Assembly (NCBI RefSeq): GCF_024297145.1
Contig: NZ_JANCTC010000019.1
Span: 1-64,000, forward strand
DNA from: Mesorhizobium sp. LMG 17147
GTDB taxonomy: Bacteria; Pseudomonadota; Alphaproteobacteria; Rhizobiales; Rhizobiaceae
Direction of reading: 5' to 3'
Length of the DNA stretch: 64,000 nucleotides
Under the pieces are notes generated by a model. The model did no database searches. It saw only the letters and a list, made by a program, of their open reading frames with translations, and was not told the DNA's origin. Of this stretch, positions 13,605 to 62,212 are shown one piece after another; position 1 is the first letter of the stretch, and the number at the start of each line of letters is the position of its first letter. Position numbers and translations under genes: made by a program.

Positions 13605-14765
13605 ATGCGTGTTGTAGCCGATCGATCTGCGGCGCCTGTCGCTATCCGCACCGATCTTGGCGCGATCTTCGTTTCTTTGGAACTCAGTAAATCGACCTGG
13701 TTGATCACTTCGCTGTCGCCGGGCAGTGGGGAGAAGATGTCGAAACATGCGGTACGCGGCGGCGATATCACAGGACTGCTGGCACGCTTTGCCCAGCTTC
13801 AGGATAAGGCACAGGCGCGCACCGGCCGGCACTTTGCGCTTGTGGTCATTCAGGAGGCGGGTCTCGACGGCTTCTGGATCCATCGAATCCTGGAGGCCGA
13901 GGGGATCGAAAGCCATGTCGTCGACGCCGCCTCGATTGCCACGTCGCGCCGGCGGCGTCGTGCCAAGACCGACAAGATCGATGGTGAGGCGTTGGTGCGT
14001 GCGCTGCTCGCCTACAAACGAGGCGAGCCGCGCGTGTGCGCGATGGTTAGGGTACCGAGCGTCAAGGAGGAGGACCATCGGCGCATCGGCCGTGAACGCA
14101 AGGTTCTGGTTGGTGAGCGGACCTGCCATGTCAACCGGATCAAGGGCCTGCTGTTTGCTCAGGGCATCACCGGCTACGAGCCGCTGCGACGTGACCGGCG
14201 ACATCGGCTTGAGGAATTGAGGACCGGCGACGGCCGCGCACTGCCAGAACATCTGAAGGGGCAAATCCGTCGCGAGCTCGACCGACTCGAACTGGTGATA
14301 GCCCAGATCAAAGAGGTGCAGGCCGAGCGCGACGCTCTGCTGGCAATCGAAGTCGCCGAAACTCCAGCAGCGACATTGCTCGATCTCAAAGGTATCGGCC
14401 CCGAGTGTGCCGCCATCCTCTACGCGGAAGGGCTGTTCCGGCACTTCGATAATCGCCGGCAGGTCGCCGCCTATGCCGGGCTCGCGCCGACGCCTTGGCA
14501 GAGCGGATCGGTCCAGCACGAGCAAGGCGTCTCGAAGGCCGGCAACCCCCGGCTGCGAACGACGATGATCGAGTTGGCCTGGCTGTGGCTGCGCAATCAA
14601 CCGAGTTCAGCACTTACCCGCTGGTTCCACGAACGCGTGATGCGCAATCAGGGGCGCCTCAAAAAGACAACCATCGTCGCCCTTGCAAGGAAGCTGCTCG
14701 TGGCGCTGTGGAAATACGTGACCGCGGGCGTCGTCATCGAAGGTGCCGTCATGAAGGCTGTCTGA
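13605..14765 (+). mobile_element. IS110-family transposase
   Basis: 386 residues. The N-terminal half is a DEDD transposase (IFVSLELSKSTW, VIQEAGLDGFW, AKTDKIDGEALVRALLAY) and the C-terminal half is the Transposase_20 domain (LLDLKGIGPECAAILYAEGL and VAAYAGLAPTPWQSG). In the first motif glutamate stands where most members have aspartate. The frame is complete. IS110 elements lack terminal inverted repeats and carry long non-coding ends, which may explain the empty DNA on both sides. It lies about 120 bases from the start of the IS481 gene, so two elements have landed at the same spot beside panC. Confidence 0.9.
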
Positions 14766-15118
14766 CGAGATCACACCGATACACTCATCCCTCGAGGCCT
14801 GATCAGCCTCGGCGGATCCAGGAGGCGAACCGAGATCCCAGCTGGCTGGAATGCCGTATCAAAGACGGGTCTCGCCTTCTGGGCCCCTGCCGCCGCAAGC
14901 GGGATATTGGTGCAGCCGTCTCAAGCGGCGACCGTATGTGAGTTTGACTAGGCTCGATTGACAGAGCCGTGTCACGCAATCGGGCCCAGCTCTGGATTCC
15001 GCCGCCAATTGGGAGCAACACGATGCCGCCCTAACACACCTCTTGACCTCAGCATCGTCATGTGAGCCCGGGATCAAACACTCGCGCATATCCGCGCAAA
15101 AATTGACCAAGGGTCATG
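14766..15118. other. Non-coding stretch after the IS110 transposase
   Basis: About 350 bases with no credible gene on either strand. The left part is probably the non-coding end of the IS110 element. The right part lies at the 3' end of the minus-strand catabolic operon that stops at 15119. I see no obvious terminator hairpin. Confidence 0.4.
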
Positions 15119-15856
15119 TCATATGACTGTTCGCCCGCCATTGACCGCGAATTTCTGGCCCGTGATGAAATCGGCTTTGGGCGAAGCAAGGAAGACAACC
15201 ATATCGGCAATGTCGCGCGGCTTGCCGAAGTATCCAAGCGGTGTCCTTGCCAGGTACCAGTCGCGTTTGTCTTGCGGCACATCGGCGTGGCGTTCAACTG
15301 GAATCCAGCCCGGTGCCACCAGATTGACCGTGATGCCCTCCGGCGCCAACTCCTTGGCCCAGGATCGTGTCATCGACAGCATGGCGCCCTTTGCCGAGGC
15401 GTAGTTGCCGAAATACGGATTGCCTAGCTCCGCGATCTCGGAGCCGATATTGACGACCCGCCCGGACTTGCGGGCACGCCAGTCAGGAAGCACGGCTTGC
15501 AGGAGTTCCAGTGGGGCTTTGACAAAGAATTCGAGCTGGTCGAGATAGCTTCGCCAGGTTTGCGCCATCAGCGGCATTTCCGGCTGCGGACCGGTGGCAT
15601 TGTTGACGATCAGATCGACGGAGCCAAGGTTTCGCGCGATGGTCTCGACACCGCTGGCAAGTTGGTCCTTTTCGACGACACTGAATTTGGCAGCGAAGGC
15701 GCGTCCACCCGCCTTAACGATTTCGCTGACCACGCGGCCGGCGCCATCGTTGTCATGGGCGTAGTTAACCGCCACCGCCCAACCGTCCGCTGCCAGCCCC
15801 CTTGCGATCTCGGCGCCAAGTCCGCGCGAAGCTCCGGTTACCAACGCTGTTTTCAT
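15119..15856 (-). CDS. SDR-family oxidoreductase
   Basis: About 245 residues. TGASRGLGAEIARGL is the NAD(P) glycine motif, VNNATG the central beta-strand motif, and NYASAKGAMLSM provides the catalytic tyrosine and lysine. The C-terminus (FITGQKFAVNGG) is typical of classical SDRs that oxidise or reduce sugars and hydroxyacids. The ATG at 15856 overlaps the stop of the upstream aldolase gene as ATGA. It is the last gene of the operon Gfo-hydroxyacid dehydrogenase-aldolase-SDR that begins at the operator at 18832. The substrate is unknown. Confidence 0.88.
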   Translation of the reverse strand: MKTALVTGASRGLGAEIARGLAADGWAVAVNYAHDNDGAGRVVSEIVKAGGRAFAAKFSVVEKDQLASGVETIARNLGSVDLIVNNATGPQPEMPLMAQTWRSYLDQLEFFVKAPLELLQAVLPDWRARKSGRVVNIGSEIAELGNPYFGNYASAKGAMLSMTRSWAKELAPEGITVNLVAPGWIPVERHADVPQDKRDWYLARTPLGYFGKPRDIADMVVFLASPKADFITGQKFAVNGGRTVI

Positions 15857-16653
15857 GATGCACCCCTGTCTGCGTTTGACCACCCCTGCGCGGCGGCCTC
15901 AAAAGATGTGCGCAAGGCCTGGGCGCCCTGCATGAGAAATGTCTGATCGCTCGACAGCAGGAAGAAGCTGGCGCCCCGCTCAATCCAGACTGGGACGTCC
16001 GCGAGATTGGAGACGAACATGCCGACCCGCCGACCTGCTTCGCGCGCGCGACGGCAGATCTCCGTCACAGCTTCGATGACGGCTGGGTCATCCGGGCTCT
16101 GGGCGCCCATCGAGATGGTGAGGTCGATGCGGCCGACAAAAACGCAGTCGAGGCGATCGATGCGGACGATGTCGGCCAGATCGTTCAATGCTTCCCGATC
16201 CTCGAGCTGTGCGATGATCGCTGTGTCGTCAATGGCTCGCTGCCGATATGCCGCCATCGGGCTGCGCGTGAAGCCGGCAGCGCGGGTCGAGCCGGCATAG
16301 CCGCGTCCGCCCGGTCCGAACAGGCAATGGCGAACGAGCGCTTCAGCATCGGAGCCTGAACGGATGTGGGGAGCGACCACGCCGGTCGCCCCGAGATCCA
16401 GCGCATTGAGAATGTTTTCGGGTGAGGCCGAAGCCGGACGGACCAGAACCGGCATGTCCTGAGCGCTCGACGCGAAGATGGCGCCATCGAGGTCCTTGCG
16501 GTCAAAAGGAGCGTGCTCGGCGTCGAGGCACAGCACATCGAGCGCGGCGCCTGCCAGAACCTCGGCTACGATACGGCTCGGCGTCTTGATCCAGGTGCCG
16601 ACGAGCGGCTGTCCCGACAGCAATCTGCCACGGAATCCGAGTGCCGTGCTCAT
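15853..16653 (-). CDS. HpcH/HpaI-family aldolase
   Basis: 266 residues. The class II pyruvate-type aldolase family is shown by ALDVLCLDAEHAPFDRKDL, GATGVVAPHIRSGSDAEALV, GYAGSTRAAGF, the acidic/arginine motif QLEDREAL and VGRIDLTISMG. These metal-dependent enzymes cleave 2-keto-4-hydroxy or 2-keto-3-deoxy acids to pyruvate (or tartronate semialdehyde) and an aldehyde. In this region it could supply the carbon-carbon cleavage that IolJ performs in standard inositol catabolism; that role is inference. It overlaps both neighbours by four bases. Confidence 0.9.
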   Translation of the reverse strand: MSTALGFRGRLLSGQPLVGTWIKTPSRIVAEVLAGAALDVLCLDAEHAPFDRKDLDGAIFASSAQDMPVLVRPASASPENILNALDLGATGVVAPHIRSGSDAEALVRHCLFGPGGRGYAGSTRAAGFTRSPMAAYRQRAIDDTAIIAQLEDREALNDLADIVRIDRLDCVFVGRIDLTISMGAQSPDDPAVIEAVTEICRRAREAGRRVGMFVSNLADVPVWIERGASFFLLSSDQTFLMQGAQALRTSFEAAAQGWSNADRGAS

Positions 16654-17621
16654 ACCGGTGCCCGCAACGTCTGCCGGTTGACCACCGTTTCCGGCATGCT
16701 TCCGGCCAGCACATCGAGGACGGATTGTGTCGCCGAGGCGGTCATCCTGGCGACGGATTCGCGGCTGATGCCGCCTATATGGGCTGCGCAGACGAGATTT
16801 GGCACACCGTCAAAAGCTTGGGGATCGGGAGGCTCGGTCTCGAACACGTCCAGCGCGGCACCGGCGATTTGGCCGGACTTCAGCGCCGCAAACAATGCCT
16901 GTTGGTCGACCACGGGACCGCGCGCCGTGTTGACGAGGAGCGCCGATGGTTTCATCATGGCGATCGCAGCAGCATCGATGAGGTGACGGGTCTCGTCGAG
17001 CAGGGGAACATGCAGGCTGATGATGTCACAACGGGCATAGAGTTCGGTCAGGCTCGTCAGTTTCGTCGCGCCCGGGAAATCATCGACCATCTGGTCGAAA
17101 TAGCAGATCTGGACGCCGAAGCCGGCAAGCCTGCGCGCGACGGCGCGGCCGATCGTACCGGCGCCGATGAGGCCGACGGTCTTGCCGGGCAGTTCAGAGG
17201 GCATATACGGGCCGACGCGTTCCCATATGCCGGCCTTTACTGATGCATCCTGCTGCGGAACCTTGCGGACCAAGGCAAGGATCAGTGCCAGTGTGTGGTC
17301 GGCCACCGTTTCAGCGTTCATCCCGGGGGTGATCGAAATGGCGACGCCATGCGCGTCGGCTGCCGCGCGGTCGATGGAATCGACGCCGACGCCGACGCGC
17401 GCGATGACCCTGAGCGAGGGCAGGGCGCCTAGAACCTCGGCAGTGAACGGATCGGTGCTTACAATTGCCCCTGTACAGCCGTCGGCGAGGCGGACCACCT
17501 CCTCTGCCGTGCGCGCACCGAGTTTTGGGGCGAGCACCAGTTCGTGACCTGCGTCGACCAGGCGGCGCCCGGTCAGTTCATCTTCCGGATCATAGCCCGG
17601 CCAGCTGACGAATATTTTCAT
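16650..17621 (-). CDS. D-2-hydroxyacid dehydrogenase (NAD-binding)
   Basis: 323 residues, the family's usual size. The Rossmann motif GLIGAGTIGRAVARRLAGFG is near residue 148, the catalytic arginine lies in LLVNTARGPVVDQQALF, glutamate in DVFETEPPDP and histidine in CAAHIGGISRES. It resembles SerA/GyaR-type reductases that interconvert 2-hydroxy and 2-keto acids such as glyoxylate, hydroxypyruvate or tartronate semialdehyde derivatives. Placed directly before an HpcH aldolase, it may reduce an aldolase product or make its 2-keto acid substrate. It is coupled by a four-base overlap to the aldolase gene. Confidence 0.9.
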   Translation of the reverse strand: MKIFVSWPGYDPEDELTGRRLVDAGHELVLAPKLGARTAEEVVRLADGCTGAIVSTDPFTAEVLGALPSLRVIARVGVGVDSIDRAAADAHGVAISITPGMNAETVADHTLALILALVRKVPQQDASVKAGIWERVGPYMPSELPGKTVGLIGAGTIGRAVARRLAGFGVQICYFDQMVDDFPGATKLTSLTELYARCDIISLHVPLLDETRHLIDAAAIAMMKPSALLVNTARGPVVDQQALFAALKSGQIAGAALDVFETEPPDPQAFDGVPNLVCAAHIGGISRESVARMTASATQSVLDVLAGSMPETVVNRQTLRAPV

Positions 17622-17637
17622 GACGCGCTCCCCGAGG

Positions 17638-18765
17638 TCAGAGCGACCGGTAACGGATGTCGATCTTTTGCCCGGCCTGTGCCGCCCTGACAGCGGCGTC
17701 GATTATCTCTGAGCAATAGTAGCCGTCCCTGAAGCTGGCTCCGATCGGCTCGACATCGTGAAGACCGGCGACCGCGCCGAGAATATGGACTGCCTCGTGG
17801 CTGAACGTGTCGACCCAGCCCAGCGGGTGGCCAGGCGGGAACCAGTTCGTGCGGTATGGATCATCCTCGCGCAATACAGGGATGGTGCGGAAGGCGTGAT
17901 CGCGCCCGGCAACCTTGAGCTCGTTCAGAGTCTGCAGGGAGAATGCGATGGAACCCTTCGAACCGTCGACCTCGATGCGGCTGGTCACCAGGTGGCCGCC
18001 AGCGACACGTGAAGCCTCGACGACACCGAGCGCGCCGTTGTCGAAGTCGAGAAGTGCGGCAAACTGGTCGTCGGTCTCGATTGCGGCGCCATCGGCGTCG
18101 GAAGGTACCTTGACGCGGGTCGTTGCATGCACGGTGCATGGATCGCTTGCGAGCAGAAAACGCGACAGATCGAGGTGGTGCGCCGCAAGGTCGCCGAGCG
18201 CGCCTGCGCCTGCGGCTTCCTTGTCATCGCGCCAGCTTTTGCGTCGGCCGTCCCCCAGCGAAGAGGAAACGAGGAACTGCGAGCGATAGTGGTAGACGTC
18301 GCCGATTTCGCCCGACTGGATGATTTGCCGCGCTAGCTGCAGGGCCGGAAAGAACCGATAGTTGAAGGCACACATGTGCTTGACGCCGGCTTGCGCCGCT
18401 GCTTGCCACATGTCGAAGGCGGTGTCCGCTGTTGGGCCGAGGGGCTTTTCGCAGTAGACATGCTTGCCGGCCTTGACCGCGGCGATCGTCGGCTCGACAT
18501 GCAGCGCGTTGGGACCTGAGTTATCGATAAGCTGGATGGCCGGATCGGCGATGAGCTCCTTCCAGTCGGTCACGCCGCGTTCCCAGCCGAGCCGGCGGCG
18601 GGCTTCCTCGAGCCTCTCGCCGTTCCTGCCGTAAAGCGCCACGAGCCGGGGGCGGGGAATGTCATCTGTGGCAATTGACGTGACATCGCGGTAGCCAAGC
18701 GAGTGAGCCTTGCCCATGAAGGCATAGCCGATCATCCCGACGCCAACCTCGTTCGATCCAGGCAT
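17638..18765 (-). CDS. Gfo/Idh/MocA-family dehydrogenase
   Basis: 375 residues. The N-terminal Rossmann fold starts VGVGMIGYAFMGKAHSLGYR, and the family motif CEKPLGPTAD supplies the catalytic lysine of the EKP loop near residue 100. AFNYRFFPALQLARQ and GDLAAHHLDLSRFLL belong to the C-terminal substrate domain. Members oxidise secondary hydroxyls of sugars, cyclitols and their derivatives with NAD(P). It is the first gene of the minus-strand operon and has a regulon palindrome about 65 bases upstream. One of four such paralogues in this region; their substrates probably differ. Confidence 0.92.
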   Translation of the reverse strand: MPGSNEVGVGMIGYAFMGKAHSLGYRDVTSIATDDIPRPRLVALYGRNGERLEEARRRLGWERGVTDWKELIADPAIQLIDNSGPNALHVEPTIAAVKAGKHVYCEKPLGPTADTAFDMWQAAAQAGVKHMCAFNYRFFPALQLARQIIQSGEIGDVYHYRSQFLVSSSLGDGRRKSWRDDKEAAGAGALGDLAAHHLDLSRFLLASDPCTVHATTRVKVPSDADGAAIETDDQFAALLDFDNGALGVVEASRVAGGHLVTSRIEVDGSKGSIAFSLQTLNELKVAGRDHAFRTIPVLREDDPYRTNWFPPGHPLGWVDTFSHEAVHILGAVAGLHDVEPIGASFRDGYYCSEIIDAAVRAAQAGQKIDIRYRSL

Positions 18766-52841: not shown

Positions 52842-53522
52842 TTACTTCAGCAGTTTGATCAGCACTGCGAAAGCCGCGTCGATGTCGGCGCGAACCGCCG
52901 CCCGAACCGCTTCCGCATTGCGGTCTCGCAGAGCTGCAAACATCTGCTGATGGTGCTGGTTGGCGGTCGAATAGTTTCCAGAATCGTGCAGCATGTTGAA
53001 ATAGGGGCTGATCTGCAACCACAGGTTCTCGATGATGCTGAGCATGTTTTCCGAGCCCGCGGCCCGGTAGATGGAAAAGTGAAAAGCGTAATTGGCCCTG
53101 AGATAGGATTTTACGTCTCCGGCGGCATTGGCCTGCTCGAGTGCCTCCAGATGCTGCCCCAGCAGCATCACGCCGTGATCGTCAATGCGTTCTGCGGCCC
53201 ATGCGGCGGCGATCGCCTCGATCTCAAACCTGACGTTCCTGAGATCGATGAGTCGCGCGCGGCTTAATGCCGGGATACCGATCGAACGGCCCGAAACCAC
53301 CATCAATGCGTTGGCAGCGCTCAGACGCCGCAGTGCCTCCCTAACCGGCATCGGGCTGACGCCAAAAGCATCGGCAAGGCTCTGCACCGTCACCATTTCA
53401 CCTGGAACGATACTGCCATCGAGGATCAACTCGGTAACGTGCCGGTAGACCCTGTCCTGCAGGGTTTCCCTGGACAGCGGCGTGATTTCAACGCCCGGCT
53501 TCCTGAATGCCGCCCCAGCCAT
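52842..53522 (-). CDS. GntR-family (FadR/FCD) transcriptional regulator
   Basis: About 226 residues. Winged HTH at residues 20-80 (LQDRVYRHVTELILDGSIVP, VQSLADAFGVSPMPVREALR), then the all-helical FCD effector domain with metal-ligand histidines in ANYAFHFSIYRAAGSENM and ANQHHQQMFAALRDRN. The ATG at 53522 is preferred to a TTG three codons earlier. FCD regulators usually repress sugar-acid catabolism and are released by a pathway acid. It is divergent from the transporter and catabolic genes at 53754-62212, its likely targets. Confidence 0.93.
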   Translation of the reverse strand: MAGAAFRKPGVEITPLSRETLQDRVYRHVTELILDGSIVPGEMVTVQSLADAFGVSPMPVREALRRLSAANALMVVSGRSIGIPALSRARLIDLRNVRFEIEAIAAAWAAERIDDHGVMLLGQHLEALEQANAAGDVKSYLRANYAFHFSIYRAAGSENMLSIIENLWLQISPYFNMLHDSGNYSTANQHHQQMFAALRDRNAEAVRAAVRADIDAAFAVLIKLLK

Positions 53523-53654
53523 TTGTGCCAACCTTCCCCCATTCGGGCGACGCTTTCGTCATACCCGGCGCTTTTGCCGGGAATGCAAGGTTCGAATTGC
53601 CGCGTCAAGCGCCCGCGTGTCTAGCTTTGCCTCTCAGTCATTTCATCATTGATC

Positions 53655-53664
53655 TTTGATCAAA
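53655..53664. promoter_or_regulatory. Possible GntR operator
   Basis: TTTGATCAAA is a perfect ten-base palindrome in the divergent gap between the GntR gene and the binding-protein gene; TTGATC also occurs just upstream (53649-53654). FCD regulators commonly bind short AT-rich palindromes of this kind. Assignment rests on position only. Confidence 0.45.
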
Positions 53665-53753
53665 TCATGATACGGTCAGCCGCATCGAATGACAAGGCGT
53701 ACGTCTCGTGCCCTTGGGAGGCATTCGGTCGTCTGAACTGGGAGGAGTTTCGA

Positions 53754-54881
53754 ATGGGTATCGGATCGAAGGCCCGGCGGCTCGCGCTGCTTGCCGGCAT
53801 GGCTGTTTGCGCTTTTGGGATGTCCGGCGCCGAAGCGGCCGGAAGGCACAAGATATTTCTCAGCATGAGCTTCATCGGCAATGATTGGCAGGCCGAGGCG
53901 GCCAACATGGTCAAGGCAATGGCCTCGCACAAGAGCATGGTCGACAAGGTAGACCTTCAGGTCCAGGTGGCGGGGCCGAACGCACAGCGCCAGATCCAGC
54001 AGATCAATGCCATGGTCCAGGCTGGCGCCGAAGCCATCGTGATCTTCCCGATTTCACCGACAGCCCTCAACCAGGTGGTGAAGAACGCATGCGAAAAGGG
54101 CGTGAAAGTGTTTGCCTATGATGCCGAGATCACGGAGCCTTGCGCCTACAATGTCCATATCGACCAGGAGGAGGCTGGCCGCGTAACGGCGGAGTGGCTG
54201 GTTAAGAAGCTCAATGGCAGGGGCAACATCATCGCGGTGACCGGCGTTCCTGGCACCTCGGTCGATGATCTGCGCACCAAGGCCGCGAAGGAGGTGTTTG
54301 CCAAGCACCCCGACATCAAGATCGTCGGCGAGGCTGTCGGCATGTGGAGCCAGGCGGTGGCGCGTACCGAACTTTCCAAGATATTGGCGACGCGCAGCTG
54401 GGACGACATCAACGGGTTATGGATGCAGGTCGGCTGCTTCACCGCCAATTCCATGCAGCTCGAGGCCGGCAAGAAGAGCAGCGAACTCCTGCCTTGCGCA
54501 GGCGAGGGTTCGAATGGCGGGCGTATCCAGATGCTGCCGGAGGGCACGGAGGTCGAGGGCGCGACCTCTCCCTATGCGCCGCTCGGCGCCCCGCGCATTT
54601 CCTACGCATCGCCGCCTTATTCCGGGGCGCTCGCTCTCAAGCTTGCCGTCGAAGCACTTGAAGGCAAGGACGTTGCCAAGAAGACGATCCTGCCGCTGCC
54701 GGTCGTCACCAACGAGACGATAAAGCTTTGCGACGAGGGCACCTGGGCGGAGATGAAGGCTGGTTGCAACGCGTTCAAACCGTCGCTGGTCTCGAACCCA
54801 GGCTGGTTCGCCTCGATCTTCTCCGATCAGACACCTGAAATCGGTCTCGCAGCAGCTCTTGTAGGCCAGCCCGAGGAGTAG
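53754..54881 (+). CDS. CUT2 sugar ABC transporter substrate-binding protein
   Basis: About 375 residues. The ATG at 53754 follows GGGAGGAGTTT; the frame upstream is not used. Residues 1-29 are a signal peptide (LALLAGMAVCAFGMSGAEAA). The mature part shows FLSMSFIGNDWQAEAANMVK, QINAMVQAGAEAIVIFPISP, NVHIDQEEAGRVTAEWLVKK and VTGVPGTSVDDLRTKAAKEV, the ribose-binding type. It contains cysteines in several loops (for example NGLWMQVGCFTAN and GSELLPCAGEG-like ELLPCAGEG). First gene of the GntR-controlled cluster. Confidence 0.92.
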   Translation: MGIGSKARRLALLAGMAVCAFGMSGAEAAGRHKIFLSMSFIGNDWQAEAANMVKAMASHKSMVDKVDLQVQVAGPNAQRQIQQINAMVQAGAEAIVIFPISPTALNQVVKNACEKGVKVFAYDAEITEPCAYNVHIDQEEAGRVTAEWLVKKLNGRGNIIAVTGVPGTSVDDLRTKAAKEVFAKHPDIKIVGEAVGMWSQAVARTELSKILATRSWDDINGLWMQVGCFTANSMQLEAGKKSSELLPCAGEGSNGGRIQMLPEGTEVEGATSPYAPLGAPRISYASPPYSGALALKLAVEALEGKDVAKKTILPLPVVTNETIKLCDEGTWAEMKAGCNAFKPSLVSNPGWFASIFSDQTPEIGLAAALVGQPEE

Positions 54882-54953
54882 GCACTCCGAAAGTGGGCGT
54901 GGGGTGCTTGCGAGGCGCTCCACGCACCTTTCATGCAGGCCGGGACTGGGATC

Positions 54954-56492
54954 ATGATGTCAGCGCATTCGACAGCGGTCGGCATAGAGGGCGTCCGCAA
55001 GGCATTTGGCGCAACAGTCGCCCTCGATGGCGTTTCCTTCGAGATCGCTTCCGGCAGCGTGCATGCCTTGCTTGGCGAGAACGGTGCGGGCAAGTCCACG
55101 CTCGTCAAGCTGCTGTCGGGGCTGGTGCGGCCCGACGACGGGCAAATCACCCTGTCAGGCGAACCGGCGCCACTCGGTTCGCCGCGGGCCGCGCATGCCA
55201 AAGGCGTCCAGACAGCCTTCCAGGAAATGACCCTGGTACGCGATCTCAGCGTTCTCGACAACATGTTGCTGCCTTACGCGCCCGTTGGCCCAGTCGGCTT
55301 GACAAGGCGGTTGAGCGCGCGTAGGGCAGTCCGCAAGCACATCTCCGATCTGGAGTTTACGGTCGATCTCGATGCCGAGGTAGCGACTCTAGATCTCGCC
55401 ATCCGCCAGAAGATCGAAATCGCGCGCGCGCTCTATCGCAAGCCGCGCATCCTACTGCTCGACGAGCCGACCTCGACGCTGTCGGGTGGCGATGTCGAGT
55501 GGCTTGCCGCGATCATCGCGCGGTTGAAAGCGGCCGGTACAACGGTCGTGTTCATCACCCATCGCATGCGCGAGGTGCGGGCTTTCTGCGACACGCTGAC
55601 CATTCTCAGGAACGGCCACCACATCGTCACCGCGCCGGTTGCCGACGTTTCGGATGGTGAGGTGATCGAAAAAATCATCGGCCGCAGCATCGCCCAGACC
55701 TTCCCGCCGAAACCAGAAGGCGAGGCCGCCTTTGGTCCGCCGGTGCTCGGCGTGCGCGATCTCAAAGCCGGGAGGAAGCTCGACGGCATCGATTTCGACC
55801 TGCGCAAGGGCGAGATCCTCGGCGTTGCCGGATTGCAGGGCATGGGTCAGCTCGACCTGTTCCTCGCCTGTTTCGGCATGGCCGAGATCGAGCGCGGCCA
55901 CATTCTGGTCGACGGGCGCCAAGTGTGGCTCGGCTCGCCCGCGGATGCGCTCAAGCCCAATATGGCAATCGGGCTGGTGCCGGAGGACCGCAAAACCGAA
56001 GGCCTGTTCCTGAAACTCTCGGGCCGGCAGAATGCATCGCTGCCGGTCGTGGCGCGCTTCACCCGTTATGGCCTGATCAGAACAGACGAGGAGGCAAAGG
56101 CCGTACAGTCCGCCTTCTCGACCGTGGAGGTCGACCGCAGTGCCTTGTGGACGAGGGCTGGGGCCTTCTCGGGCGGCAACCAGCAAAAGATAGCCATTGC
56201 CAAATGGCTCGTCGCCGAAAGCCGGATCCTGCTGCTTTTCGATCCGACCCGGGGCATTGACGTGGGGACCAAGCACGAGCTCTACGTGATGATGCGCGAC
56301 TATGTGGCGGCCGGCGGCTCGATCCTTCTGCATTCAACCGAGATTCCCGAGCTGGTCCATCAATGCGACCGGGTGCTCGTGCTTTATGACGGCCATCTGG
56401 TGGCTGAGCTTGCCGGCGACGAGATCACCGAAGGCGCGATCATGCGGCCGGCGCTTGGCCACCGGGACGTGGTCCGGGAGGCGGCGCAATGA
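54954..56492 (+). CDS. CUT2 sugar ABC transporter ATP-binding protein (two ATPase domains)
   Basis: About 512 residues (ATG at 54954 or 54957, after GGGA). Domain 1: LGENGAGKSTLVKLLSG, LDLAIRQKIEIARAL and LLLDEPTSTLSGGD. Domain 2: GLQGMGQLDLFLA as degenerate Walker A, FSGGNQQKIAIAKWL and RILLLFDPTRGIDVGTKHE, where phenylalanine and aspartate replace the Walker-B aspartate and catalytic glutamate. One working site is normal for CUT2 ATPases. It overlaps the permease gene by four bases. Confidence 0.93.
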   Translation: MMSAHSTAVGIEGVRKAFGATVALDGVSFEIASGSVHALLGENGAGKSTLVKLLSGLVRPDDGQITLSGEPAPLGSPRAAHAKGVQTAFQEMTLVRDLSVLDNMLLPYAPVGPVGLTRRLSARRAVRKHISDLEFTVDLDAEVATLDLAIRQKIEIARALYRKPRILLLDEPTSTLSGGDVEWLAAIIARLKAAGTTVVFITHRMREVRAFCDTLTILRNGHHIVTAPVADVSDGEVIEKIIGRSIAQTFPPKPEGEAAFGPPVLGVRDLKAGRKLDGIDFDLRKGEILGVAGLQGMGQLDLFLACFGMAEIERGHILVDGRQVWLGSPADALKPNMAIGLVPEDRKTEGLFLKLSGRQNASLPVVARFTRYGLIRTDEEAKAVQSAFSTVEVDRSALWTRAGAFSGGNQQKIAIAKWLVAESRILLLFDPTRGIDVGTKHELYVMMRDYVAAGGSILLHSTEIPELVHQCDRVLVLYDGHLVAELAGDEITEGAIMRPALGHRDVVREAAQ

Positions 56493-58561
56493 GTGTGACG
56501 AGCCTGGCCGCCGCGGCACCGGCCGCGACATTGGCGCGGCTCCTCGCGCGGCATCGCGGCGCCATCATCGCGGCGATCGTCTTTGCCCTGCTCCTGCTGG
56601 TCGTCGATCTGGTCAGTGCCGGGCAGCTCACCTATTTCGACATTTCGTTCCTGTCGAGCGGCGGCGCCACTTCCGCACTGGCAGCGATCGGCCAGACCCT
56701 GGTCATTCTGTCCGGCGGTTTCGACCTGTCCGCCGGCGCGGTGATCTCGCTGGTCAATGTCGTCCTGGCAAACGGCATGGATCCGATGGCGACCGGCACC
56801 AGTGTCGCGCTGTGGACTTTGGCCGGAATTGGGGTCGGCATGCTGGTCGGCGCCTTCAACGGCTTCTTCATTGCCGTCCTGCGCATGCAGCCTATCGTCG
56901 TCACGCTGTCGACCATGTTCATCCTGCAGGGGGTAACGCTGCTGGTCATGGACAAGCCCGGCGGCTTTGTCTCGCCCGATCTTGGTGCCTTCTATCTCGG
57001 TGATGCTATCGCCGGCTGGATACCGATGCCGCTGGTGGTCATCGGCGTCGTCCTGCTCGGCTGGTTCTGGCTCAAAGGCACACGCTTCGGGACGGCGCTT
57101 TATGCCGTCGGCAGCGATCCGGACGCAGCCGCCTCGGTCGGCGTGCGGGTCGTTCTCGTACGCTTCCTGGTCTATGTCATTGCCGGCGGCTGCTATGGGC
57201 TTGCCGGCGTTTTCATCAGCGCCCAGACCGGCAGCGGCGATCCGCTGGTCGGCAACCCGTTGTTGCTGTCGATGTTCGCGGCGGTCGTCGTCGGCGGTAC
57301 AAGGCTGGGCGGCGGTCAAGGTGGGCCCGTCGGAACTGTCTTCGGCGCCTACATCCTGATGATGGTCGTCAATATCCTGCTCGTGCTCAACGTCTCGGCC
57401 TACTATTCGACGATCGCCGAAGGCACGATCCTGATCCTTGCCGTGCTTGCCGGCTCGCTGTCGCACGACTCCGTGCTTGCCCGCCAACTGCGTGCGCTGC
57501 GGGCTCGGCTGGCCGCGTGGCGGGCCGGAATGCTGCCCTCGCAGATCGATCGCACCGACCGGCGACTGGGAATTGCGCGGGGCAGCGCCGGCGAGCAGCA
57601 GGTGCCGCAGCCGGCCTTCCATGTCCGTAACGCCGAGACGCTGCGTTACGCGCTGCCGGCCTATGTCTGTCTTGCCATTGTCGTGATCGTCACGCAGATC
57701 TGGCTCGGACGGGCCATCGCCAATTTTGGTTACTGGAATTCGCTGTTCGTGCTGTCGAGTTTCCTTGCCATCCTGGCGCTTGGGCAAGGCAGCGTGATTC
57801 TTACCGGCGGACTTGACCTGTCAGTGCCGTGGATGATCGGCCTGTCGGGCATCCTGCTTGCCGGTATGGTCAACGGATCCGACGCTGCACTTGCCTATGC
57901 GCTGCCGGCGGTGCTCGCTGTCGCTTGCTTGATCGGTCTCGCCAACGGCATCGGTGTCGTTTTTCTCGGCATCTCGCCAATTGTTATGACGCTGGCCACC
58001 AACGGCATTCTGCAAGGGTTCGCTTTGCTCTACTCGCAAGGCACGCCGGCCGGCTTCTCCTCGCCGATGCTGCGCTGGTTCATGACCGGCAAGGTATTCG
58101 CCATCACGCCGGTGGTGCTGTTCATGATCGCCTTCGTCGTCTTTGCCGTGCTGCTGCTCGGCCGCACCGCTTTCGGCCGCCGCGTCTACGGTATCGGCAA
58201 CAGCCTGCGCGCAGCCCAGCTCTCCGGCATAGCGGTCGGTCGCACGCTCATCCTCGTCTATGTGCTGTCGGCAGTCTGCGCGGCGCTGGTCGGCATCATG
58301 CTGACCGGCTTTTCCGGCCAGGCCAGCCTCGGTATGGGCGACGATTATCTGCTGCCCTCCATCGCCGTCGTCGTGGTCGGCGGTGCGCTGATCACCGGCG
58401 GGCGCGGCCATTATCTCGGCATGCTGGGCGGGGTGCTGCTCCTGACCGCGTTGCAGATGCTGCTCGCCGGCACGACGCTTCCTTATGCGACGCGGGCGAT
58501 CCTGTTCGGGCTGGTGGTGCTCGGTGCCGTCATGGCGCTGCGTGAAAGGCGGATTCAGTGA
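56489..58561 (+). CDS. Fused double permease of a CUT2 sugar ABC transporter
   Basis: 690 residues, twice the size of a normal RbsC. The N-terminal half (about 20-340) has AIGQTLVILSGGFDLSAGAV and FAAVVVGGTRLGGGQGGPVG. A hydrophilic linker of about 40-60 residues around residue 360 (IDRTDRRLGIARGSAGEQQV) leads to the C-terminal half (about 380-690) with ALGQGSVILTGGLDLSVPWM and IAVVVVGGALITGGRGHYLG. Each half carries the full permease motif set, so one polypeptide can supply the whole membrane channel. The ATG overlaps the ATPase stop. Confidence 0.93.
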   Translation: MSVTSLAAAAPAATLARLLARHRGAIIAAIVFALLLLVVDLVSAGQLTYFDISFLSSGGATSALAAIGQTLVILSGGFDLSAGAVISLVNVVLANGMDPMATGTSVALWTLAGIGVGMLVGAFNGFFIAVLRMQPIVVTLSTMFILQGVTLLVMDKPGGFVSPDLGAFYLGDAIAGWIPMPLVVIGVVLLGWFWLKGTRFGTALYAVGSDPDAAASVGVRVVLVRFLVYVIAGGCYGLAGVFISAQTGSGDPLVGNPLLLSMFAAVVVGGTRLGGGQGGPVGTVFGAYILMMVVNILLVLNVSAYYSTIAEGTILILAVLAGSLSHDSVLARQLRALRARLAAWRAGMLPSQIDRTDRRLGIARGSAGEQQVPQPAFHVRNAETLRYALPAYVCLAIVVIVTQIWLGRAIANFGYWNSLFVLSSFLAILALGQGSVILTGGLDLSVPWMIGLSGILLAGMVNGSDAALAYALPAVLAVACLIGLANGIGVVFLGISPIVMTLATNGILQGFALLYSQGTPAGFSSPMLRWFMTGKVFAITPVVLFMIAFVVFAVLLLGRTAFGRRVYGIGNSLRAAQLSGIAVGRTLILVYVLSAVCAALVGIMLTGFSGQASLGMGDDYLLPSIAVVVVGGALITGGRGHYLGMLGGVLLLTALQMLLAGTTLPYATRAILFGLVVLGAVMALRERRIQ

Positions 58562-58574
58562 AAGGGATGGGACA

Positions 58575-59381
58575 ATGAGCTCAAGCGCACCGGCATCGGC
58601 GGACGAATTCCTGACGGGGCTCAAAGGCCAGCGCGTGCTGGTCACGGCGGGCGCCGGCGGCATCGGCTTTGCCATTGCAGAGACACTGTCGCGGCTCGGC
58701 GCGCGTGTCGTGATCTGCGATATTTCGGACGAGGCATTGGCGTCCGCTCCGAAAAGGATTGCCCTTGCCGCTGCGGTCAAGGCCGACGTTTCGCGCGACG
58801 ACGATGTCGACCGGCTGTTCGAGACTATCAAGGAGAAGCTCGGCGGGCTCGACGCCCTGATCAACAATGCCGGCATTGCCGGGCCGACCGGCGGCGTCGA
58901 TGAGATCGATCCGGCAGACTGGCGGCGTTGCATAGATATCTGCCTGACCGGCCAGTTCCTGTGCGCGCGGCGTGCCGTGCCGCTGATCAAGGCGGCGGGC
59001 GGCGGCTCGATCGTCTCGATGTCTTCGGCCGCCGGCCGCCATGGCTACGCGTTCCGAACGCCGTACTCGGCTGCCAAGTTCGGCGTTGTCGGCCTGACCC
59101 AGAGTCTTGCAAAGGAACTCGGACCGCATGGCATCAGGGTCAATGCCATCTTGCCCGGCATCATCGAAGGGCCGCGCATCGACAAGGTCATTGCCGACCG
59201 GGCAAAGCAGCTCGGCGTTTCAAACGAGGAGATGACACAACGCTATCTGCAGAACATCTCGCTGCGCCGCATGACCAGCCCATACGATGTCGCGGCAATG
59301 GTGGCCTTCCTGCTTTCCGATGCGGGCATCAACATTTCCGGCCAGTCGCTTGGCGTCGACGGCAACGTCGAGACACTCTGA
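58575..59381 (+). CDS. SDR-family oxidoreductase
   Basis: About 268 residues. VLVTAGAGGIGFAIAETLSR is a slightly altered cofactor loop (TAGAGGIG for TGxxxGIG), ALINNAGIAGPTGGV, the serine in SMSSAAGRHGYAF and YSAAKFGVVGLTQSLAKELG complete the fold. The start follows GGGATGGGACA. In this operon it probably oxidises the imported sugar or its aldonate; the pairing with a lactonase suggests a sugar 1-dehydrogenase giving a lactone. It is 13 bases after the permease gene and 10 before the next gene. Confidence 0.9.
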   Translation: MSSSAPASADEFLTGLKGQRVLVTAGAGGIGFAIAETLSRLGARVVICDISDEALASAPKRIALAAAVKADVSRDDDVDRLFETIKEKLGGLDALINNAGIAGPTGGVDEIDPADWRRCIDICLTGQFLCARRAVPLIKAAGGGSIVSMSSAAGRHGYAFRTPYSAAKFGVVGLTQSLAKELGPHGIRVNAILPGIIEGPRIDKVIADRAKQLGVSNEEMTQRYLQNISLRRMTSPYDVAAMVAFLLSDAGINISGQSLGVDGNVETL

Positions 59382-59391
59382 GGGGGAGATC

Positions 59392-60339
59392 ATGGCGAAG
59401 GTAGCAATTGTCGGAAGCGGCTTCATCGGGCGAGCGTGGGCGATCAGCTTCGCTCGTGCAGGCCATGATGTGCGCATGTGGGACCAGGCGCCGGCCGCGG
59501 CCAGCGGTGCGCGCGACTATATCGCCGGCGTGCTCGGCGACCTCGCCACCAACGATTTGCTGCGGGGACAGGCGGTCGATGCCGTGCTTGGCCGCATCAC
59601 CATTGTGGCCGAGCTTGGCGAGGCCTTGGCCGATGCCGTCCACGTCCAGGAGAACACGCCGGAAAACCTCGAGGTGAAGCGGGAAGTGTTCTCCCGGATC
59701 GACGCCCTTGCCGGTCCGCAGGCGGTGCTCGCCAGTTCCACCTCGGCGCTGTTGCCGTCGAAATTCAGCGATCATCTTCAGGGGCGCCATCGCTGCCTCG
59801 TCGTGCACCCGATCAATCCGCCCTATCTCATCCCGGCAGCGGAAGTCGTGCCGGCGCCGTGGACCTCCGCCGAAACGGTGGAAAGGACCCGCGCCTTTCT
59901 TGTCGAGGCGGGCCATGCGCCGCTGGTGATGAAGAGCGAACTCGACGGCTTCATTATGAACCGCTTGCAGGGTGCGCTGTTGGAGGAGGCGTTCCGGCTC
60001 GTCGCCGACGGCTATGCCAGCGTCGAGGACGTCGACACGGGCCTGCGCGAGGGGCTGGCGCTGCGCTGGTCGTTCATGGGTCCGTTCGAAACGATCGACC
60101 TCAACGCGCCTGGTGGCGTGCGCGACTATGTAGAGCGCTACCAGACGATCTATTCCAACATCTTCCCGCAGACGCTGCGTCGGGTCGACTGGGCCGGCGA
60201 GGTCATGGAGACGGTCGAGGCCGAGCGCCGCAGCCGGCTGCCGCGGGAAGAACTCGGCGAGCGGCAGGTCTGGCGCGACCGCCGACTGATGGCGCTGGCT
60301 GCGCACAAGAAAAAATCGGATCAGGAGTTTGGACGATGA
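59392..60339 (+). CDS. 3-hydroxyacyl-CoA dehydrogenase-family enzyme, L-gulonate 3-dehydrogenase-like
   Basis: 315 residues. VAIVGSGFIGRAWAISFARA is the NAD fold, VQENTPENLEVKREVF and LASSTSALLPSKF follow, and the active-site histidine lies in CLVVHPINPPYLIPAAEVVP. The NPPY/IP pattern is that of lambda-crystallin/L-gulonate 3-dehydrogenase and of carnitine dehydrogenase, enzymes that oxidise a 3-hydroxy group of a small acid, rather than of fatty-acid oxidation enzymes. Its product, a 3-keto acid, is the substrate type of the enzyme encoded next, with which it overlaps (ATGA). Confidence 0.92.
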   Translation: MAKVAIVGSGFIGRAWAISFARAGHDVRMWDQAPAAASGARDYIAGVLGDLATNDLLRGQAVDAVLGRITIVAELGEALADAVHVQENTPENLEVKREVFSRIDALAGPQAVLASSTSALLPSKFSDHLQGRHRCLVVHPINPPYLIPAAEVVPAPWTSAETVERTRAFLVEAGHAPLVMKSELDGFIMNRLQGALLEEAFRLVADGYASVEDVDTGLREGLALRWSFMGPFETIDLNAPGGVRDYVERYQTIYSNIFPQTLRRVDWAGEVMETVEAERRSRLPREELGERQVWRDRRLMALAAHKKKSDQEFGR

Positions 60340-61298
60340 CGGAAACAAGCCGCAAGCCCGGCTCCCAGCAGACCAAGGGCAAGGTCATCATCACCTGTGC
60401 GGTGACGGGCGCAATCCATACGCCGACCATGTCGCCCTATCTGCCGATCACGCCGGACCAGATTGCCTCGGAGGCGATCGCGGCGGCCGAGGCCGGTGCG
60501 GCGATCCTGCATCTGCATGCCCGCGACCCTGAGACCGGCAAGCCCGACCAGACGCCGGAGGCGTTCGCGCGTTTCCTGCCGCGCGTCAAGCAAGGCACCA
60601 ATGCCGCCATCAACATCACCACCGGCGGCAGTCCCTACATGAAGGTCGAGGAACGCGTGCGCCCCGCCGCGCAGTTCGAGCCGGAAGTCGCCTCGCTCAA
60701 CATGGGATCGATCAATTTCGGGCTCTATCACCTCGTAGACAAATACGAAACATTCAAGTTCGACTGGGAAAGGCCGCACCTGGAAGCGACGCGTGACCTG
60801 GTCTTCCGCAACTCGTTCAAAGACATCGAGTACATACTGGAGACCTGTTACGACAACGGCACGCGCTTCGAGTTCGAGTGCTACGACATTGCCCATCTCT
60901 ATAACCTCTCCCATTTCGCAGATCGCGGGCTGGTGAAACCACCGTTCTTCGTGCAGTCCGTGTTCGGCCTGCTCGGCGGCATCGGTACGCACCCCGAAGA
61001 CGTCGCCCATATGAAGCGCACCGCCGATCGTCTGTTCGGCGAGCAGTACCGCTGGTCGGTGCTGGGCGCGGGCGCCAGCCAGTTGCGCATTGCCGCGCAA
61101 TCGGCAGCGCTTGGCGGCAATATCCGCGTTGGGCTCGAAGACAGTCTGTGGGCCGGCAAGGGCAAGCTTGCCAAATCGAACGCCGAGCAGGTGGTGCTCG
61201 CCCGCAAGATCATCGAAGGCCTTGGCATGGAAGTGGCGACGCCTGACGAGGCCCGCAAAATCCTGTCATTGAAGGGCGGCGACCAGGTCGCGTTCTGA
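60336..61298 (+). CDS. Beta-keto acid cleavage enzyme (BKACE, DUF849)
   Basis: 320 residues. KVIITCAVTGAIHTPTMSPY opens the TIM barrel, AGAAILHLHARDPETGKPDQ carries the zinc-binding HxH, INITTGGSPYMKVEER, SLNMGSINFGLYHL, FECYDIAHLYNL and VGLEDSLWAGKGKLAKSNAE complete the family pattern. BKACE enzymes react a beta-keto acid with acetyl-CoA to give acetoacetate and a shortened acyl-CoA. The substrate should be the 3-keto acid made by the dehydrogenase encoded just upstream. In carnitine users the same pair degrades dehydrocarnitine, but the sugar transporter and lactonase here favour a sugar acid. Confidence 0.93.
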   Translation: MTETSRKPGSQQTKGKVIITCAVTGAIHTPTMSPYLPITPDQIASEAIAAAEAGAAILHLHARDPETGKPDQTPEAFARFLPRVKQGTNAAINITTGGSPYMKVEERVRPAAQFEPEVASLNMGSINFGLYHLVDKYETFKFDWERPHLEATRDLVFRNSFKDIEYILETCYDNGTRFEFECYDIAHLYNLSHFADRGLVKPPFFVQSVFGLLGGIGTHPEDVAHMKRTADRLFGEQYRWSVLGAGASQLRIAAQSAALGGNIRVGLEDSLWAGKGKLAKSNAEQVVLARKIIEGLGMEVATPDEARKILSLKGGDQVAF

Positions 61299-61333
61299 CC
61301 GGTTTCTGCAAGATTCGAACAGAGGAGGACGGC

Positions 61334-62212
61334 ATGAAGATAGAGGTCGTGGTGGACGTGAAGACCACGCTGGGCGAGGGACCACTGTGGGACGTTGAAC
61401 AGGAGCGCCTCTACTGGATCGACAGTTTCGACGGGCGTGTGTTTCGGGCGACCGCCGACGGTCGCGAGATCCGTTGCTGGGACGTGCCGATGAAGATCGG
61501 TTCGATGGCATTGCGCAACGACGGCGGTGGTGCGGTGGTGTCGCTGCAGCGCGGTTTCCATCTGCTTGATTTTGCTACTGGCGAGGTGACGCTGATCCAC
61601 GATCCAGAGCCGGATAGGCCGATGAACCGGCTCAATGACGGCAAGGTCGATCGGCGCGGCCGCTTCTTCGCCGGCTCGATGGATACCATGGAAGAGGGAC
61701 CCTCGGGCGGGCTCTACCGGCTCGATCCCGATTTCTCCGTGACCAGGATCGATTCCGGCATCATCTGCTCCAACGGCCCATGCTGGAGTCCCGACGACCG
61801 CACCTTCTATTTCGCCGACACCTGGACCGGCGAGATCTGGGCCTACGACTATGATATCGAAACCGGTGCCGCCACCAACCGGCGCACTTTCACCCGCGTC
61901 GATACCAGCCGGGGAGGGGCGGCCGACGGCTCGACAGTCGATGCGGAAGGATTCCTCTGGAACGCACTGGTCTATGACGGCAGGCTGGTGCGTTACGCGC
62001 CCGACGGCAGCGTTGATCGCATCATCGACATGCCCGTCAAGAAGATCACCAGCGTCATGTTCGGCGGACCGAAGCTCGACACCCTGTACGTCACGTCGAT
62101 GGCCAAACCGCCGCTGCCGCGCTTTCCGGGCGACGGAGTTTTACGCGGCAGCCTTTTTGCCATCACTGGCCTCGGCGTAACGGGAGTTCCGGAGCCAAGA
62201 TTTGCCGCGTAG
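61334..62212 (+). CDS. SMP-30/gluconolactonase-family lactonase
   Basis: 292 residues. TTLGEGPLWDVEQERLYWID holds the first metal ligand (Glu), RLNDGKVDRRGRFFAGSMD the second region, SNGPCWSPDDRTFYFADT the Asn/Asp ligands and DGSTVDAEGFLWNALVYDG the last. It hydrolyses a sugar lactone to the open acid in the cytosol. The gene ends the GntR-controlled cluster, 35 bases after the BKACE gene with a GAGGAGGA ribosome site. It differs clearly from the other SMP-30 protein at 22089. Confidence 0.93.
   Translation: MKIEVVVDVKTTLGEGPLWDVEQERLYWIDSFDGRVFRATADGREIRCWDVPMKIGSMALRNDGGGAVVSLQRGFHLLDFATGEVTLIHDPEPDRPMNRLNDGKVDRRGRFFAGSMDTMEEGPSGGLYRLDPDFSVTRIDSGIICSNGPCWSPDDRTFYFADTWTGEIWAYDYDIETGAATNRRTFTRVDTSRGGAADGSTVDAEGFLWNALVYDGRLVRYAPDGSVDRIIDMPVKKITSVMFGGPKLDTLYVTSMAKPPLPRFPGDGVLRGSLFAITGLGVTGVPEPRFAA

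Follow-up and report, generated by a model that had tools for sequence, protein, structure and literature searches.

What does a rhizobial operon degrade when it joins a sugar-type ABC importer to two dehydrogenases, a beta-keto acid cleavage enzyme (BKACE) and a lactonase? Such an operon is found in the first 64,000 nucleotides of contig NZ_JANCTC010000019.1 of Mesorhizobium sp. LMG 17147 (GCF_024297145.1), the whole stretch analysed here, hereafter the window, where eight genes at positions 52842-62212 form one unit. An earlier note, made from the sequence alone, had named a ribose-type transporter, a short-chain dehydrogenase/reductase (SDR), an SMP-30 lactonase, a gulonate-3-dehydrogenase-like enzyme (HCDH) and a BKACE under a divergent FCD regulator. 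All of these genes are found on the plus strand, together with the regulator gene on the minus strand (52842-53531; Pfam FCD 88.8 bits, GntR 65.6 bits).

We propose, with a rough probability of 0.58, that these genes encode the oxidative 2-deoxyribonate pathway in a rhizobial version. Either a 2-deoxypentonic acid or its lactone, or else the sugar, would enter through the CUT2 importer, the SMP-30 protein would open the lactone, and the SDR would oxidise the C3 hydroxyl, with HCDH acting in parallel on the opposite C3 configuration. BKACE, using acetyl-CoA and zinc, would then split the 2-deoxy-3-keto-pentonate into acetoacetate and glyceryl-CoA; the latter would be hydrolysed and subsequently phosphorylated by a glycerate kinase; candidate genes for both steps adjoin the operon in a few relatives and are found at other places in the window genome. 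This proposal draws on protein families, catalytic residues, conservation, a candidate operator and homology to clusters of a published layout, all read from sequence; from these we infer the substrate, the order of steps and the roles of HCDH and the hydrolase. The core chemistry, a BKACE acting on a sugar acid, has been known since 2019; what is new here is the CUT2 importer, together with the second dehydrogenase and a candidate hydrolase. If the proposal is true, the 2019 pathway is no longer confined to a few clusters with transporters of the major facilitator superfamily (MFS) and includes an ABC-transporter operon that rhizobia and their relatives commonly carry, and the imported compound could be deoxyribonate derived from DNA. 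It also suggests that the labels '3-keto-5-aminohexanoate cleavage', '3-hydroxyacyl-CoA dehydrogenase' and 'SDR family oxidoreductase' mislead in such operons.

Resemblance to the published deoxyribonate clusters

Genetic data of Price et al. (2019; PMC6365646) indicate that, in Pseudomonas simiae and two Burkholderiaceae, 2-deoxyribonate is oxidised by an SDR and the product cleaved by a BKACE. According to passages of that paper, the cleavage yields acetoacetate and, as inferred there, glyceryl-CoA, which leads through glycerate to 2-phosphoglycerate; the purified SDR was active on deoxyribonate and had no activity on deoxyribose. The same passages give the P. simiae operon (PS417_07240-07265) as gntR-SDR-BKACE-lactonase-MFS-MFS, with the palindrome GTGATCAC spanning -47 to -40 relative to gntR, and the Paraburkholderia bryophila cluster (H281DRAFT_00640-00644) as AraC, BKACE, transporter, HADH and SDR, the SDR and BKACE of P. 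simiae and Paraburkholderia being 50-60% identical. The use of a BKACE in a sugar-acid route, which the earlier note had considered unusual, was therefore already in print for 2-deoxyribonate, with an SDR-BKACE-lactonase trio. As SDR, HCDH and BKACE genes are contiguous in the window, SDR and BKACE share one cluster here as they do in the clusters of Price et al.

Three Pseudomonadaceae clusters, L217, L218 and L219, which are near copies of one another, stood in for the P. simiae proteins in our comparisons. We took them as the published type on three counts: their gene order is the published one (FCD-GntR, SDR, BKACE, SMP-30, MFS, MFS), GTGATCAC occupies exactly positions -47 to -40 relative to the regulator, and the L218 SDR and BKACE share 56-60% identity with their counterparts in seven AraC-MFS-type loci, much like the published 50-60%. 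Two further loci of this Pseudomonas-type family are less complete, L220 reaching a contig end with no SMP-30 match and L223 having SMP-30 with the second MFS gene not matched. The window proteins are 70-71% (SMP-30, over 292 of 292 residues), 65% (BKACE) and 51% (SDR) identical to those of L217-L219. The window operon is like the P. simiae cluster in having an SDR, a BKACE and a lactonase with these identities to the stand-in clusters, its FCD-GntR regulator and its TGATCA operator core; it differs in having a CUT2 ABC importer in place of the MFS pair, an additional lambda-crystallin-type dehydrogenase, a divergent regulator and the operator TTGATCAA, so that neither mark of the P. simiae subtype, the MFS pair or GTGATCAC at -47 of gntR, is found in it.

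The P. bryophila layout recurs in Burkholderiaceae loci such as L172 and L174 (BKACE-MFS-SDR2-SDR; AraC confirmed by Pfam in L172). Like the window, this type joins an SDR, a BKACE and a second dehydrogenase, and the AraC-MFS-type SDRs of such loci are ~50-54% identical to the window SDR. Unlike the window, it has an AraC regulator, an MFS transporter, no lactonase of the SMP-30 family and, in several look-alike loci, a second dehydrogenase of the SDR type rather than the lambda-crystallin type. All eight gene families of the window occur in Caballeronia grimmiae on plasmid p1 (LDZ21_RS20050-20010), in a different gene order, with an extra lactonase of the metallo-beta-lactamase fold and an SDR in the deoxyribonate-type clade. 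This locus joins both layouts, genes for a CUT2 importer, HCDH and SMP-30 coming after GntR-SDR-BKACE-lactonase; its GTGATCAC lies at -55 relative to the start annotated for GntR. Literature searches, with most subscription journals outside their coverage, found no paper describing a CUT2-SDR-HCDH-BKACE-SMP-30 operon or a glyceryl-CoA hydrolase.

Conservation of the operon extends to many Alphaproteobacteria and some Betaproteobacteria. Scanning genomes with the window BKACE gave at least 589 relatives, the best 80 of which were kept. Gene sets were counted for fetched BKACE loci flanked on each side by 6 kb or more, taking SDR, HCDH and SMP-30 homologues over thresholds within 9 kb. All three accompany the BKACE in 39 of 61 loci scoring at least 500 bits, many of the 39 being near relatives. 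Broken down by BKACE score, the full trio is present in 14/16 loci at 600 bits or more, 25/45 at 500-600, 3/24 at 400-500 and 0/30 at 300-400, while none of the three is nearby in 0/16, 7/45, 8/24 and 15/30, respectively. The gene set exceeds chance. Carriers include Mesorhizobium, Phyllobacterium, Jiella, Aureimonas, Tistlia and Bordetella, and the unit was also seen in other Rhizobiales, a Roseovarius, Caballeronia and genome G588. The nearest named operon, in Mesorhizobium sp. LSHC420B00, has a BKACE 98% identical to that of the window genome (5.98 Mb).

A candidate operator, TTGATCAA, lies in the divergent promoter at 53656-53663. It is based on 47 orthologous gaps between the FCD regulator and sugar-binding protein genes, of which 38 contain TTGATCAA, four GTGATCAC (two Bordetella, Metarhizobium and Ancylobacter), two another TGATCA and three, from Aureimonas, none of these; many of the gaps belong to close relatives, and the counts are not independent. 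After base shuffling (200 shuffles), TGATCA occurred in a mean of 1.85 of the 47 gaps. The common TGATCA core fits related FCD regulators.

Cleavage chemistry and the lactonase

The BKACE gene (60336-61298, plus strand; PF05853 357.9 bits, cut-off 24.8) overlaps the HCDH gene by four bases. In an alignment, its product keeps the HxH zinc histidines and the equivalents of E171 and R254 of BKACE15. In this family, acetyl-CoA receives C1 and C2 of the keto acid, giving acetoacetate, and none of the substrates mentioned in passages of three papers (PMC6365646, PMC11961710, PMC10470551) carries a substituent at C2. The Pfam search recognised no dehydratase family among the eight operon proteins. 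Taken together, these two observations mean that a 2-deoxy-aldonate fits and a plain aldonate does not, and the substrate should accordingly be a 2-deoxy-aldonate. The earlier note had started from a plain aldonate, that is, a 2-hydroxylated sugar acid oxidised at C3 and then cleaved. The resemblance of HCDH to L-gulonate 3-dehydrogenase speaks for such a route. Its product would be 2-hydroxyacetoacetate, for which the operon holds no further enzyme, and the literature passages contain no 2-hydroxylated BKACE substrate; we rejected it, mainly on the BKACE chemistry, as very improbable.

Somewhat less improbable, and still poorly favoured, is a route for a non-sugar 3-hydroxy or 3,5-dioxo acid or lactone, such as precursors of 3,5-dioxohexanoate or 5-hydroxy-3-ketohexanoate. 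The window BKACE scores 546.3 bits, over a cut-off of 430, against NCBIfam NF053538 (3,5-dioxohexanoate:acetyl-CoA acetone transferase). Such a route fits badly with the ribose-type importer, with a lactonase clade common to deoxyribonate-type clusters and with the glycerate kinase gene that adjoins the operon in some relatives. In the BKACE tree, moreover, the BKACEs of Pseudomonas-type deoxyribonate clusters fall within the same wider clade as the window protein, the AraC-type BKACEs lying outside it. BKACE identity as such was dropped as a guide to the substrate, as genomic context varies inside the clade.

The SMP-30 gene (61334-62212, plus strand; PF08450 285.2 bits, cut-off 26.3) encodes a probable deoxyaldonolactonase, judging by its relatives. 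It was expected to precede the dehydrogenase and is actually the last gene, downstream of BKACE. Aligned over 292 of 292 residues, the protein shares 70-73% identity with lactonases of the Pseudomonas-type clusters and of L191. A quick, midpoint-rooted tree places these within the clade of window-type SMP-30 proteins (40 rows, support 93), to which those of Caballeronia and Ancylobacter do not belong. A tandem SMP-30 pair follows BKACE at a series of other loci (L029-L036, L039-L041, L043-L045, L049, L050, L056, L061, L199 and L238). The first copy forms a clade of its own and has no counterpart in the window.

Two dehydrogenases and a sugar-type importer

The SDR gene (58575-59381, plus strand; adh_short_C2 200.9 bits) was assigned by the earlier note to a sugar 1-dehydrogenase. 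A C3 dehydrogenase is more likely, since the published SDR acts on deoxyribonate and not on deoxyribose and clusters with the same layout have SDRs 51% identical to that of the window; the protein is thus a probable 2-deoxyaldonate 3-dehydrogenase. The treatment of the SDR as part of a clean orthologue group of deoxyribonate dehydrogenases was dropped, as a bit-score gap seen among BKACE-selected loci did not hold up when 220 genomes, sampled evenly from the window's class, were searched. In that sample the SDR was matched (E<=1e-45) in 40 genomes, its own included, with 48 matches besides its own. The nearest solved SDR structure is PDB 5unl (290 bits, the next scoring 142), deposited as a 3-ketoacyl-ACP reductase. 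Given a Burkholderia multivorans record in which an SDR 56% identical to that of the window adjoins a BKACE, this PDB name may mislead.

HCDH (59392-60339, plus strand; Pfam 3HCDH_N and 3HCDH) scores 491 bits against NCBIfam PRK06129 (cut-off 347), and its nearest solved structure is lambda-crystallin, an L-gulonate 3-dehydrogenase (3ado, 230 bits). The likeness spans the full length and includes the HPxNPP stretch (HPINPPYLIP versus HPVNPPYYIP); unlike 3ado, the window HCDH sits inside a BKACE operon, and its substrate is a prediction from sequence. Enzymes of the L-gulonate 3-dehydrogenase class oxidise L-3-hydroxy acids, and C3 of 2-deoxy-D-ribonate has the D arrangement; HCDH could thus be an additional C3 dehydrogenase, with the other stereochemistry. 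Carnitine dehydrogenases and the cleavage of dehydrocarnitine also belong to the HCDH and BKACE families, and a route for carnitine or another quaternary-amine beta-hydroxy acid might be imagined on these grounds. The carnitine dehydrogenase models NF005716 and NF005471 do match HCDH, at 190 and 172 bits, far under their cut-offs of 592 and 414, and neither the sugar importer nor the lactonase would have a place in such a route; it was rejected as barely credible.

Loci with one dehydrogenase help to separate the remaining readings. SDR stands beside BKACE without HCDH in L028, L072 and L083, and HCDH stands beside BKACE with no SDR of the window subfamily nearby in L058, L060 and L122. The SDR-only and HCDH-only loci are easier to reconcile with two alternative C3 dehydrogenases than with steps in succession. 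Consecutive steps are what the earlier note implied: the importer would bring in 2-deoxyribose, the SDR would make the lactone at C1, SMP-30 would open it, HCDH would oxidise C3 and BKACE would cleave. A sugar-type binding protein, a lactonase, two dehydrogenases for two oxidations and the HCDH-BKACE pairs would all agree with that order. It conflicts with the substrate of the published SDR, with the SDR-BKACE loci that have no HCDH, and with the many Pseudomonadaceae and Burkholderiaceae loci in which SDR, BKACE and an MFS gene have no sugar ABC importer adjoining, and we regard it as unlikely. Of the earlier route, the path from lactone to aldonate ending in C3 oxidation and BKACE cleavage is supported; the plain aldonate is not, and the placing of SDR at C1 is the less likely option.

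The importer is encoded by genes for a CUT2 sugar-binding protein (53754-54881; Peripla_BP_4 161.9 bits), a double-cassette ATPase (54933-56492; two ABC_tran stretches) and a fused double permease (56489-58561; two BPD_transp_2 stretches), all on the plus strand, the last two overlapping by four bases. Xylose/arabinose-type NCBIfam models match the ATPase only below their cut-offs. The predicted model of the binding protein (mean pLDDT 83.4) gave as top PDB folds ribose, xylose, arabinose, fructose, glucose/galactose and other sugar binders, tied at Z ~27-30. The fused permease measures 690 aa in the window and 698-699 aa in two relatives.

Downstream steps and the weight of the evidence

Price 2022, in the passage concerned, describes the glyceryl-CoA hydrolase as unknown, and our survey yields a concrete candidate for it. 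After the operon on Rhizobium ruizarguesonis pRlX3 come genes for a chemoreceptor, LarA, LarC, LarE-like and LarB proteins, a MOFRL glycerate kinase and a 3-hydroxyisobutyryl-CoA-hydrolase-like protein (PRK05617 445 bits, cut-off 274). The operon of Agrobacterium tumefaciens Q15/94 has a chemoreceptor, a glycerate kinase and a hydrolase of the same family (426 bits) after it; Ancylobacter tetraedralis has such a hydrolase (371 bits) between SMP-30 and SDR, and in a Rhizobiaceae metagenome-assembled genome HCDH-BKACE-SMP-30 and a different kind of SDR have a MOFRL glycerate kinase just past them. Short 3-hydroxyacyl-CoAs are substrates of 3-hydroxyisobutyryl-CoA hydrolases, and on this account the family is a candidate for the glyceryl-CoA hydrolase. 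A single MOFRL kinase and a single hydrolase homologue (42%) are present in the window genome, both unlinked to the operon, which makes available the glycerate kinase that the pathway of Price et al. 2019 calls for.

The locus on pRlX3 (L119) carries, between the operon and the glycerate kinase (14434-18471), a LarA-like nickel racemase with LarC, LarE-like and LarB; the LarA-like protein, which scores 340 bits, below the lactate-racemase cut-off of 460, is possibly a glycerate racemase. A fuller version of the pathway would be blind to the epimer, with SDR taking one C3 configuration and HCDH the other, so that both erythro and threo 2-deoxypentonates are used, with the hydrolase-like protein of the relatives as the missing glyceryl-CoA hydrolase and a LarA-type racemase correcting glycerate in one of them. 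This combination is tentative, and we consider it doubtful as a whole.

Several observations count against the deoxyribonate reading. The NCBIfam name of the window's BKACE group refers to 3,5-dioxohexanoate, the arginine at the GAGRxQ site of Pseudomonas-type BKACEs is alanine in the window, and 17 of the 61 rows of the window's BKACE clade (support 96) have none of SDR, HCDH or SMP-30 nearby. The SDR tree separates the window clade (support 99, 41 rows) from the deoxyribonate-type clade; forcing the two together, a grouping named after the tree had been seen, was not rejected (approximately unbiased test, p-AU 0.377). Nor is the SDR subfamily tied to BKACE: of the 48 other matches in the 220-genome sample, 27 were re-read with flanks of up to ~9 kb, in some cases cut by contig ends, and 6 of these 27 hold a BKACE. 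Among 22 HCDH matches besides that of the window, 7 have a BKACE within ~1.5 kb. The importer being of a sugar type, the sugar itself may be the substrate, and the fold search with the binding protein was dropped as a guide to the ligand, its PDB matches being tied among several sugar binders. The window carries TTGATCAA and not GTGATCAC; the latter is not rare as such (31 occurrences in 1.56 Mb of loci versus 23.8 expected), and therefore only its exact placement counts. Linkage of hydrolase and kinase genes to the operon is rare: among 192 sequences searched, the hydrolase occurs in three BKACE loci and in two BKACE-less loci of the SDR subfamily (L297 and L305), and the kinase in three. The MOFRL kinase type was found in 11 of 12 genomes searched, the Caballeronia-like G249 being the one without it, and a hydrolase homologue (36-42%) in all 12, so that its presence is weak evidence.

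A search for DeoC (deoxyribose-phosphate aldolase) in 13 genomes or records matched five, the window genome among them, and found none in three Pseudomonadaceae genomes with the published-type cluster, in G588, in the Ancylobacter and Bordetella genomes or in two plasmids; this distribution fits Price et al. and decides nothing for the window operon. The window genome has four further BKACE paralogues, on contigs C44, C11, C70 and C3, and the gene set of the window was not found in the 18-19 kb read around each. Two other Pseudomonadaceae loci (L221 in G964, L222 in G1075) combine HCDH, BKACE, MFS and galactarate/altronate-dehydratase-like genes with a divergent GntR and SDR, and G1075 holds the published-type cluster L218 besides.

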